44,632 nucleotides of DNA from Cyanobacteria bacterium M_DeepCast_200m_mx_001 (GTDB taxonomy: Bacteria; Cyanobacteriota; Cyanobacteriia; PCC-6307; Cyanobiaceae): the NCBI GenBank assembly GCA_016882415.1, contig VGQL01000004.1:1-44632 (forward strand), given 5' to 3'. Below are positions 20,524-29,086 of this stretch, piece after piece. Position 1 is the stretch's first letter. Every line of letters starts with the position of its first letter. Below the pieces are notes generated by a model, which had not been told where the DNA came from, ran no database searches, and was given only the letters and a program-made list of their open reading frames with translations. Made by a program: the position numbers and the translations under genes.

Positions 20524-21471
20524 TTACTGGCGGGCCTTCAGCACCTGGTTGAAGCCGCTGGCGGTGATCAGGGGCGGTTGGGTGGCGGTGTCCACCACGA
20601 AGGAGCGCGATTCGCTCTGGCTGCTGCCGTCGGGGTACACAAACGTCACCACCCCCTCCAGGGACACCAGGGCGCCGCTGCGGCCGATCTCGCGCAGGTC
20701 GGACACCCCCACCCGCTGGAACTGGCTGAAGAAGGCCAGGTCGAACTGGTCCGCGGCCCCGGCGCCGATCCGTTGGCGCGCCGCCTCGCCGTTGCCGTTG
20801 GAGAGGTCGCTGTAGAGCTGCTGCACGGTGGCGATGGCGTTGTCCAGGGCCGCCTGCTGCAGATCGGGGGCCGGGGGGATGGGGCCTGGGGTGGCGCCCT
20901 CCGTGCTCGGGGCGGTGCCGACGGCTTGTTCCGTGGTGGGTTGGGGCAGCAGAGGTAGCGCCTGACGGTTGAACAGCAGCCAACCCACCACCCCGGCCAG
21001 CCCCACCGCCAGCACGCCGGCCAGGAACCCCAGGGCCGCCACCAGCCCCTGCCCCGAGCCGGGCACCGCTGGAGCAGGCGCCGGCGGGGGTTCGCTCACC
21101 GGGGGGGCGGGTTCCGGGGCCGCCGCAGGGGCCCCAGCGTCCGCGGCCGGAGCCGACTCCGGCAGGGCCAGCAGGCCCCGCAGCACCGCCTCCATGCGGG
21201 TGCAGATGGCCGGCGTGAACACGCTGCTGAGTTCCTGCTGCAGGCGCAGCAGCAGGCGGCCATCGGCCGGCAGGGGTGGTTGCTGGCTGAGGGCGTTGGC
21301 GCAGGCCGGGGTCATCACCAGGTATTTCAGGGCCGGCAGCAGGGCCCCCTGGCTGTCGCCGCAGTAGTCGCCCACCAGGGCCTGCAGGCGCCGGCCATCA
21401 CAGCTGAGGCCGCGCTCCAGATCAGCGAGAACCTGGCGCCGCAGGGCGGTCCCCAGCTGGTGGTCGTTCAT
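20524..21471 (-). CDS. Membrane protein: novel N-terminal helical domain + Pro/Ala linker + TM + NTF2/IMS-like C-terminal domain
   Basis: MNDHQLGTALRRQVLADLERGL...; AAAPEPAPPVSEPPPAPAPA linker; LVAALGFLAGVLAVGLAGVVGWLLF TM; AIATVQQLYSDLSNGNGEAARQRIG...SFVVDTATQPPLITASGFNQVL. Confidence 0.7.
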   Translation of the reverse strand: MNDHQLGTALRRQVLADLERGLSCDGRRLQALVGDYCGDSQGALLPALKYLVMTPACANALSQQPPLPADGRLLLRLQQELSSVFTPAICTRMEAVLRGLLALPESAPAADAGAPAAAPEPAPPVSEPPPAPAPAVPGSGQGLVAALGFLAGVLAVGLAGVVGWLLFNRQALPLLPQPTTEQAVGTAPSTEGATPGPIPPAPDLQQAALDNAIATVQQLYSDLSNGNGEAARQRIGAGAADQFDLAFFSQFQRVGVSDLREIGRSGALVSLEGVVTFVYPDGSSQSESRSFVVDTATQPPLITASGFNQVLKARQ

Positions 21472-22648
21472 TGGAGCGCTGCGCAGCCGCAGGCATCTTG
21501 CCGCCTGCGTCACGCCACAGGGCCATGAGCTGCTGCTCCAGGGCCGGGCAGGGGTTCAGGCTGCCCCGCTGGCTGCGGGCCAGCAGGGCACCGAGGGGGT
21601 CGTTCTGGGGGGCGGCCAGCAGCTGTGCCGCCAGGCTGGGATCGCGGCGCAGCTGCTGCAGCTGGGCGCGGCGGGGGGTGAGGTTGGCGCGGATGCGGCT
21701 GGGGTCGGCGCAGAGGGCCCGTTGCTGCACCAGCACCGGATCGGCAGGCGGCGCCGTGGGCCGCCGCACCAGGCCCACCACTGCCAGGGTGGTTGCCCCG
21801 GCCAGCAGCAGTGCGGCCGCCAGCGGCCATCGCCGCGACGGGGGCCGCTGCCGCAGGGCCATCGCCAGCGACACATCGTCGCCGCTGCCCTGGCGGGTGA
21901 TCTGCGCCAGCCCCTCCTCCAGTTCCTGGGGGCTCCGCAGGGCGATCACCTGGCCGCAGAGGGCCAGAAAGTCGGCATCGCTGGCGCAGGATTTGCGCAC
22001 CCCATCGGTGCTGAGCACCAGGGCCCGCAGCTGCGGCTGCGCGGCCAGGGGGTGGAGCTGGGCCCGCGGGCCCCACAGGGCCGGCCCCTCCGGTAGGCAG
22101 AGGCTGGCGGTGGCCTCCCCGCTGGCCTGGGGACCGAGGCTCGGTTCTTCGCTCACCAGGCTGGCGCTGCCCTTCTCGGTGACGGCCACCAGGTCCCAGT
22201 CCCCCAGGCCGGTGCAGCCCCACCACCGGGGCGCCAGCAGCACCAGCCCCAGGGTGCAGCCGTAGGTCACCGGCTCCAGGGGCCCCGGCGGGTTGGGCTT
22301 GCGCTGCTTCCAGTCGGCGGCGATGGCCTCCCGCCAGCGGCGCTGCACGGCGGCGGCGAGCCCGCTGGCCAGCCAGGTCTCCCAGGCGGTGGTGTCCTCC
22401 AGGGGGGTCACCGCCAGGACCTCCGCCACGGCCCGCTCCGCCTCCCGGCAGGCCAGGGCACTGCCCCGATCGCTCAGCCAGGAGCGGCTGGAGCCGTGGC
22501 CATCGGCCACCGCCAGCAGTTGCAGGGTCTGCCCGCCCTGGCCCGTGAGCTGGGCGGTGAGGCTGGCGTCCTGGCAGGGTTTGCCCTGGCGGCGGTGGGC
22601 GGCGCCGATCACGCTGCAGGCCCGCGGCGCCAGCCAGGCGGAGCTCAC
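21422..22648 (-). CDS. PP2C-family Ser/Thr protein phosphatase with C-terminal TM segment
   Basis: LLAVADGHGSSRS, VLSTDGVRKS, GSGDDVSLAMAL motifs; TM LAAALLLAGATTLAVVGLV; GTG start at 22648 gives GTGA overlap with vWA gene. Confidence 0.85.
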   Translation of the reverse strand: MSSAWLAPRACSVIGAAHRRQGKPCQDASLTAQLTGQGGQTLQLLAVADGHGSSRSWLSDRGSALACREAERAVAEVLAVTPLEDTTAWETWLASGLAAAVQRRWREAIAADWKQRKPNPPGPLEPVTYGCTLGLVLLAPRWWGCTGLGDWDLVAVTEKGSASLVSEEPSLGPQASGEATASLCLPEGPALWGPRAQLHPLAAQPQLRALVLSTDGVRKSCASDADFLALCGQVIALRSPQELEEGLAQITRQGSGDDVSLAMALRQRPPSRRWPLAAALLLAGATTLAVVGLVRRPTAPPADPVLVQQRALCADPSRIRANLTPRRAQLQQLRRDPSLAAQLLAAPQNDPLGALLARSQRGSLNPCPALEQQLMALWRDAGGKMPAAAQRSNERPPAGDRPAAPGSR

Positions 22649-28041: not shown

Positions 28042-29086
28042 CCAGGGCCCAGGCCAGCCCCCCGATCAGCCCCCAGGCCCAGTGGGAGCAGAGCAGGCGC
28101 TGCAGAGGTGTGCTGCCGTCATCCCCCTGGCGGGGCAGCTGCCAGCCCAGCTGCAGGGCGCCGACCACCAGCAGCAGCACCCAGGCGGGGATGCTCAGCC
28201 CCAGGCTGGCGAAGCCCAGTTCGCGCCAGCGCAGCAGGCTCAGCCCCGCCGCCAGGGCAATCAGGGCGCTCACCGGGCCGCTGGCGCCGCTCCAGCGGCG
28301 CTCCACCCCCCAGCGCTGCGCCAGGGCGGCGGCGGGGGCCTGGCAGGCCAGGGCGCTCAGGCAGTAGCGCAGCACCACTTCCGACAGCTGCAGGGGGGAG
28401 TTGCCCAGCAGCAGCGCCAGCAGGGCCAGGTTGACCGCCGCTTCGGCGCCGTTGGCGTGCAGCCAGGGGCTGCTGAGCCAGCGCCAGGCCTGATGGGGAT
28501 CCCGGGCCTGGTCGCTCTCCAGCCACCAGCGCCGCGGCAGCCCCTTGAGGGGCCCCAGGCTCAGGGCCTGCAGCAGCCCCAGCACCACCACCAGGGCCAT
28601 GCCGCCGCTCCAGCCCCAGCCCTCCAGCAGCTGGCGATCGAGGGCGCCGCCGGCCCAGCACAACACCAGGGCACCGCTGGCCGCCAGGGCCACGCCGGGG
28701 GCCAGCTCCAGCAGGGGATGGCCCTGTGGCTCTGCCGGTGGCTGGGCTGGGTTTGGGCCTGTCGCCCTGGGGGCCGGCGCTTCGCCCCCCAGGCCGGTGG
28801 CCGCCTCCAGCAGATCCAGCAGCTCCCGTTCGATGGCGGGGGCGTAGGTGCGGCCGAGCTGTTGCCGCAGGCTGCTGAGGGCGCTCTGCCGTTGGGCCCC
28901 CTGGCTGTGCAGCACCTGCAGCAGCAACGGTTGGCTGGCCAGGTCGCGCACGGGGGCCCGCAGGGCCTCCTCAGCCCCCAGGGCATCCATCAACCGGTTG
29001 GTGAGGGCGCGGCTCTGGCGCAGGGCATCCGGATCCTGCTCCAGCCAGCGGCGCAGCTGATGGCCCAGATCCCTGCCGACGCCCAT
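28016..29086 (-). CDS. Rhomboid-like intramembrane serine protease with extra N-terminal domain
   Basis: WLHANGAEAAVNLALLALLLG, GASGPVSALIALAAG (GxSG), SHWAWGLIGGLAWALVSWLG (C-terminal His); multi-TM. Confidence 0.75.
   Translation of the reverse strand: MGVGRDLGHQLRRWLEQDPDALRQSRALTNRLMDALGAEEALRAPVRDLASQPLLLQVLHSQGAQRQSALSSLRQQLGRTYAPAIERELLDLLEAATGLGGEAPAPRATGPNPAQPPAEPQGHPLLELAPGVALAASGALVLCWAGGALDRQLLEGWGWSGGMALVVVLGLLQALSLGPLKGLPRRWWLESDQARDPHQAWRWLSSPWLHANGAEAAVNLALLALLLGNSPLQLSEVVLRYCLSALACQAPAAALAQRWGVERRWSGASGPVSALIALAAGLSLLRWRELGFASLGLSIPAWVLLLVVGALQLGWQLPRQGDDGSTPLQRLLCSHWAWGLIGGLAWALVSWLGALR

Follow-up and report, generated by a model that had tools for sequence, protein, structure and literature searches.

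Two membrane proteins of otherwise unrelated build are encoded at opposite ends of a conserved gene block in a 44,632-nucleotide stretch of cyanobacterial DNA (the window): a protein with an NTF2-like domain at 20524-21471, hereafter IMS, and a rhomboid-like protein at 28016-29086, hereafter RHOM. A sequence-only reading of the window had judged their N-termini homologous by eye and proposed a shared adaptor with a common docking partner. The locus raises two questions: whether this likeness reflects common ancestry and, if it does, what such a domain might do beside the genes of a TerY-P-type switch.

Island layout and the two membrane proteins

On the minus strand the island runs from a small membrane protein through FHA, kinase, vWA and PP2C genes to IMS, mostly with overlapping ends; the remaining two genes are FHA-PBP1, on the plus strand, and RHOM, again a minus-strand gene (Table 1). 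The PP2C gene overlaps the start of IMS, and overlaps join IMS to the PP2C, vWA, kinase and FHA genes. PSRP-3 and atpC/atpD flank the island, and this order is kept in most of the relatives examined.

Table 1. Features of the island, in positions of the window
Feature	Positions	Strand	Description	Basis
IMS gene	20524..21471	-	Module, Pro/Ala linker, TM helix 142-167, second linker, NTF2-like domain ~204-312	AlphaFold2 model, fold match
IMS module	21157..21471	-	Residues 1-105, six helices	
PP2C phosphatase	21422..22705	-	C-terminal hydrophobic segment	Pfam PP2C_2 5.1e-27
TerY-like vWA	22645..23376	-	DxSGS motif present as DCSGS	Pfam VWA-type matches; PADLOC TerY 0.0013
Ser/Thr kinase	23395..24738	-	C-terminal zinc ribbon CPQC ... 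CWHC	Pfam Pkinase 4.8e-14; motif by reading the sequence
FHA protein	24726..25493	-	Membrane segments	Pfam FHA 9.6e-15
Small hydrophobic protein	25433..25708	-	91 residues, kept in the island	Conservation
FHA-PBP1	25816..28041	+	FHA fused to bifunctional PBP1 (transglycosylase and transpeptidase)	Pfam FHA, Transgly, Transpeptidase
RHOM gene	28016..29086	-	Module, Pro/Ala linker, extra TM helix and six-TM rhomboid core, probably inactive	Pfam Rhomboid, GlpG fold
RHOM module	28784..29086	-	Residues 1-101, six helices	

TerY-P triads, composed of a TerY-like vWA protein, a PP2C phosphatase and a Ser/Thr kinase with a zinc ribbon, have been reported near tellurite-resistance and DNA-restriction systems, and a role as a metal-sensing phospho-switch has been hypothesized for them (PMC11090510). 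The island triad fits this description: the three genes are adjacent here and in relatives, and the kinase has a CxxC...CxxC zinc-ribbon-like end, whose CPQC...CWHC motif is retained in genomes G101 and G029 and which Pfam zinc-ribbon models match weakly (0.035 to 0.66). The Pfam matches of the vWA protein are generic VWA ones and its PADLOC TerY match is weak; PADLOC otherwise returns generic kinase matches, and an NCBIfam FhaB match occurs among the island proteins. In contrast to the reported triads, this one is accompanied by FHA membrane proteins, FHA-PBP1 and module-bearing membrane proteins, not by tellurite or restriction genes.

In loci L221-L224 (genomes G373-G376) a single unit made up of the genes for FHA-PBP1, the small protein, FHA, kinase, vWA and PP2C is located elsewhere, with RHOM still lying between atpC and PSRP-3; the block thus moves independently of RHOM. 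In the marine loci L081 (G101) and L082 (G029) the island adjoins tyrosine-recombinase-like genes and includes trypsin-like proteases and COP23 proteins, and in L082 it additionally encodes an FHA-ABC transporter; the recombinase-like neighbours and the cargo suggest that this island is mobile. RHOM fragments were also encountered in L161 and L163, whose assemblies bear the titles Bifidobacterium breve and Gammaproteobacteria; as L161 has cyanobacterial-type atpC/atpD too, these are probably mislabelled or contaminated bins.

The rhomboid core proposed for RHOM stands as to fold, since Pfam Rhomboid matches 39/39 orthologs and Foldseek finds the GlpG fold in the membrane part, at a target TM-score of about 0.6-0.69, and matches iRhom less well. 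Across the same 39 orthologs no catalytic Ser/His pair is conserved. With residue correspondence to GlpG taken from motifs and helix positions instead of superposition, the active-site position is occupied by Ser in 25, Ala in 11 and Thr in 3 of them, and only one of them, the window protein, has a His in the TM6 region. Because Ser is found in only 25/39 and His in 1/39, the core is, as judged from the alignment, probably a pseudoprotease. The window protein combines Ser269 with His 335, the sole His there in the 39 orthologs and probably one residue off the catalytic register, and this particular protein may be catalytically active. Loop charges favour seven TM helices in RHOM, with the module in the cytosol. 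RHOM thus shares the Pfam Rhomboid match and the GlpG fold with rhomboid proteases and pseudoproteases such as GlpG and iRhom, and differs from them in its unconserved Ser/His, its extra N-terminal TM helix and its N-terminal putative adaptor.

The C-terminal domain of IMS, earlier described as NTF2/IMS-like, is NTF2-like by fold, with Foldseek matches to the CaMKII hub, the RsgI9 NTF2 domain and a PBP5 structure (probability 1.00). The IMS part of that description is unsupported: with E allowed up to 1, Pfam gave no ARC6/IMS match in the window protein or in any of 19 orthologs. The charges flanking the single IMS TM helix are ambiguous. Since the NTF2 relative in G089 sits on an apparent lipoprotein, the NTF2 domain would lie outside and the IMS module, by extension, inside. 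G089 and G128 have neither TerY-P nor module, and there the NTF2 domain is present on other N-termini.

Homology of the N-terminal module

The N-terminal peptides quoted in the sequence-only reading are real, with correct coordinates and strands in both proteins, and the architecture it described (a shared helical module, a Pro/Ala linker, TM segments and differing outputs) is supported. Direct comparison of the two N-termini yields little by itself. BLASTP gives E 0.004 over 33 residues; in a shuffle test the local score was equalled in 195 and the end-free score in 122 of 5000 trials; and hhalign between the two sets of orthologs, of 20 and 15 sequences, returns a probability of 7.6% over 96 columns, the top score and the longest match against 116 decoy comparisons. 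Taken alone, these pairwise and two-family scores are marginal.

The homology is settled because an intermediate family matches both profiles. When profiles built from RHOM alone (A1) and from IMS alone (A2) were run separately on 245 genomes of the class, they converged on one segment, G101:C1:1401154-1401444, which A1 matched at 5.4e-8 and A2 at 2.0e-8. This G101 protein and further relatives constitute a third family, B, whose members mostly comprise the module, a linker, one TM helix and a helical ectodomain that usually has a PLF or PLW end; G140:C1:583631, a 67-residue fragment, was left out as a protein. Among the 416 window ORFs a B-only profile, containing no RHOM or IMS rows, matches only the N-termini of RHOM (2.1e-6) and IMS (5e-5; Z=60000). 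By hhalign the probability is 97.8% for RHOM against B, 98.0% for IMS against B, and 97.1% over 99 columns for RHOM plus B against IMS. The HHalign check suggested by the earlier reading thus comes out weak between the two families directly and strong once B is joined to RHOM, and the N-terminal ~100 residues of IMS and RHOM are homologous, B matching both in the same register.

Because the members of B had mostly been gathered by a joint profile, the comparison was repeated under stricter conditions. Besides RHOM itself, a profile of RHOM rows and the lone G101 row matches just one window ORF, IMS (E 0.014), and a profile of RHOM and the four closest B members reaches IMS at E 2.7e-4. In the opposite direction, profiles combining IMS with G101 or with those four B members failed to reach RHOM. 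On 6991 ORFs from 45 related loci the matches of the module profiles are confined to the RHOM and IMS reading frames, and the module tree resolves three clades, with a branch setting off each of RHOM, IMS and B from the others (support at least 95 for RHOM and IMS, 88 for B). Two weak matches of the IMS module in its own genome were set aside, one on C1 being a methionyl-tRNA formyltransferase-like frame and the other lying on C17 (0.038).

Structure prediction agrees with this picture. AlphaFold2 models built from RHOM-only and IMS-only alignments contain confident modules (block means about 89-97), and instead of the differing folds that would have spoken against homology, six helices correspond between the two models, as compared by order and position without coordinate superposition. 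The module is a new, unnamed domain inside known kinds of systems. No named family had been recognised from the sequence, and Pfam bears this out: when ten modules were compared with Pfam-A, allowing E values as high as 10, nothing matched except three weak unrelated models. Searching PDB sequences with the two full-length profiles revealed no convincing relative of the module, nor did Foldseek with the RHOM and IMS models among the matches listed, where the RHOM model led to rhomboids and the IMS model to NTF2-like domains. Within the window no further copy was found among the 416 ORFs, those of the kinase, vWA, PP2C and FHA proteins included.

A C-terminal [PR]L[FW] tail was observed in 13 of 538 non-overlapping ORFs (L081, L082, L111-L114, L118), namely in six B-type module proteins, six COP23-like secreted proteins and one secreted neighbour; it looks like a common recognition tag outside the cytosol.

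Distribution of the module and the TerY-like vWA gene

Among 151 genomes of the family, 25 encode a module protein, and these are the same 25 that carry the island TerY-like vWA, in 8 of 59 genera; co-occurrence in the sampled family is exclusive. If the genomes were independent, the chance of such identity would be about 4e-29, or about 5e-10 when counted by genus, figures that overstate the significance because the genomes are related and not independent. The clustering of the module with TerY-P genes, which the sequence-only reading had named as something to look for, is thereby borne out at the level of genome sets, and unlinked copies co-occur with them too. Most module matches (37/45) are no further than about 8 kb from the vWA gene on the same contig. 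In G062 RHOM and vWA are 1.2 Mb apart; in L124, L135, L145 and L150 RHOM adjoins PSRP-3 without the island, and the L161 stretch shows no island gene. The genomes of these five loci all have vWA elsewhere, and in the first four the entire island could be read. A requirement for physical linkage of RHOM to the island was therefore rejected, as six genomes with unlinked RHOM still carry vWA. The presence of both module proteins in every island was likewise rejected: in one genus that carries the island and RHOM, a transaldolase-like gene takes the place of IMS. The number of module proteins per genome reaches three, and many genomes have a single one (e.g., G005, G062, G101, G113, G132, G148).

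A similar arrangement is found outside the family. In four other cyanobacteria with a close vWA, the same clusters encode proteins with a helical N-domain of ~100 residues, a linker, a TM segment and a varied ectodomain, including MORN repeats and a phosphonate-type binding domain. Profile searches added further such proteins: those of G258, G344, G267 and G282 share a cluster with the zinc-ribbon kinase, and those of G171, G255 and G218 showed no island genes in their neighbourhood. This wider N-domain matches the IMS module (91.6%, E 8e-7, 65 columns), and its profile gave no match to RHOM or B alone. It resembles the module in size, in the succession of linker, TM segment and varied ectodomain and in the kind of cluster, and differs in that the profile match is limited to the IMS module; the likeness in sequence is suggestive of a common origin. 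Inclusion of all modules in the wider N-domain is unsupported, the IMS module alone matching it.

Possible role of the module and comparison with known systems

We consider it moderately probable that the module is a cytosolic adaptor tethering various membrane and extracytoplasmic outputs to a membrane-associated TerY-P-type switch. The switch would consist of the zinc-ribbon Ser/Thr kinase, PP2C, the TerY-like vWA, the FHA proteins and FHA-PBP1, and the outputs would be the pseudo-rhomboid, the NTF2-like domain and, in relatives, the helical ectodomain. The module may bind to one of the island proteins, with the kinase/vWA complex and an FHA partner as the likeliest candidates, possibly under phosphorylation control, and because the island holds FHA-PBP1 the pathway may act through it on envelope growth. 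The adaptor reading is favoured because the profile bridge is specific among the 416 window ORFs, the predicted helices correspond and synteny is kept in relatives; because the 25 genomes of 151 coincide even where RHOM is unlinked; and because the NTF2 domain occurs without the module in the TerY-P-less G089 and G128. It further draws on the cytosolic position that loop charges favour for the RHOM module together with the external NTF2 domain indicated by the lipoprotein relative, on the overlaps joining IMS to PP2C, vWA, kinase and FHA genes, and on the similar N-domain of TerY-P clusters outside the family. Against it count the failure to find a module copy on the kinase, vWA, PP2C or FHA proteins, so that a homotypic partner in the core is lacking, the relatedness of the genomes, the genus without IMS and the restriction of the wider N-domain link to IMS.

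Several alternatives deserve consideration. In one, which we regard as unlikely, RHOM, IMS and B would bind each other through the module, and TerY-P would act on the resulting assembly without a dedicated docking surface; two copies per locus and up to three per genome would suit such self-association, as would the lack of a copy on the core proteins and the homotypic coupling proposed for effector-associated domains (EADs; PMC7159879) and for Death-like domains. The many genomes with a single module protein offer no different partner, although such a protein might bind itself. Less likely again, the module or its linker could be a regulatory substrate, phosphorylated by the kinase and read by FHA, and not a docking adaptor as such: the kinase, PP2C and two FHA domains do stand in one block, but the invariant positions of the RHOM and IMS module alignments include no Ser/Thr, and the linkers are variable.

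It is very improbable that the N-termini are simply old paralogs whose co-presence with TerY-P stems from common descent and larger genomes, with no functional link. Vertical synteny near atpC/PSRP-3 and the relatedness of the genomes are compatible with it; the exact co-occurrence, unlinked copies included, is not easily so explained, nor is the NTF2 domain without the module where TerY-P is absent. Several genomes of 2.2-2.9 Mb also lack both (e.g., G004, G018, G034, G045, G075, G123), and three of these belong to the genus of G101, which itself has both. Chance likeness of two low-complexity helical segments, to which the marginal pairwise and family-to-family scores would by themselves give room, is barely credible given the exclusive B-profile matches in the window, transitive profile matches above 97%, the IMS found by the strict RHOM plus G101 profile, and the 6991 ORFs that give RHOM and IMS frames only. 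The cytosolic adaptor remains the preferred reading, and a domain that follows TerY-P genome for genome within a family, on otherwise unrelated membrane proteins, offers a handle on the wiring of the phospho-switch. The finding also suggests that, in freshwater picocyanobacteria, one control unit governs both a bacterial pseudo-rhomboid and an FHA-PBP1.

Actinobacteria possess a growth cluster, pknA/pknB-pstP-fhaA/fhaB-rodA-pbpA, in which, as here, a Ser/Thr kinase, a PP2C phosphatase, FHA proteins and a penicillin-binding protein are united in a single block; the island differs in having vWA, the FHA-PBP1 fusion, the pseudo-rhomboid and the adaptor modules, and in having no rodA in the block.

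A closer parallel in logic is found in the EADs of MoxR-vWA, iSTAND and GAP1 systems, in which a single domain is found repeatedly on adjacent genes and its occurrence follows that of the core (PMC7159879). The module resembles EADs by likeness of arrangement: it is small, non-enzymatic and mostly helical, is repeated on neighbours with different outputs and tracks a core. Unlike EADs, for which homotypic coupling has been proposed (PMC7159879), it has no copy on a core component among the 416 window ORFs, the island proteins have no MoxR, iSTAND or GAP1 family matches and the module no Pfam match, and the outputs are membrane and envelope parts. A bolder synthesis, held tentatively, is that the module represents an undescribed adaptor family serving as an interchangeable plug, by which envelope outputs, namely a pseudo-rhomboid and NTF2-like and PLF-tailed ectodomains, would be brought on their cytosolic side to a kinase/vWA/FHA complex steering the wall synthase FHA-PBP1. 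An EAD-like principle would then operate in unicellular picocyanobacteria outside NTPase conflict systems, and TerY-P clusters of other cyanobacteria would hold divergent relatives of the module.
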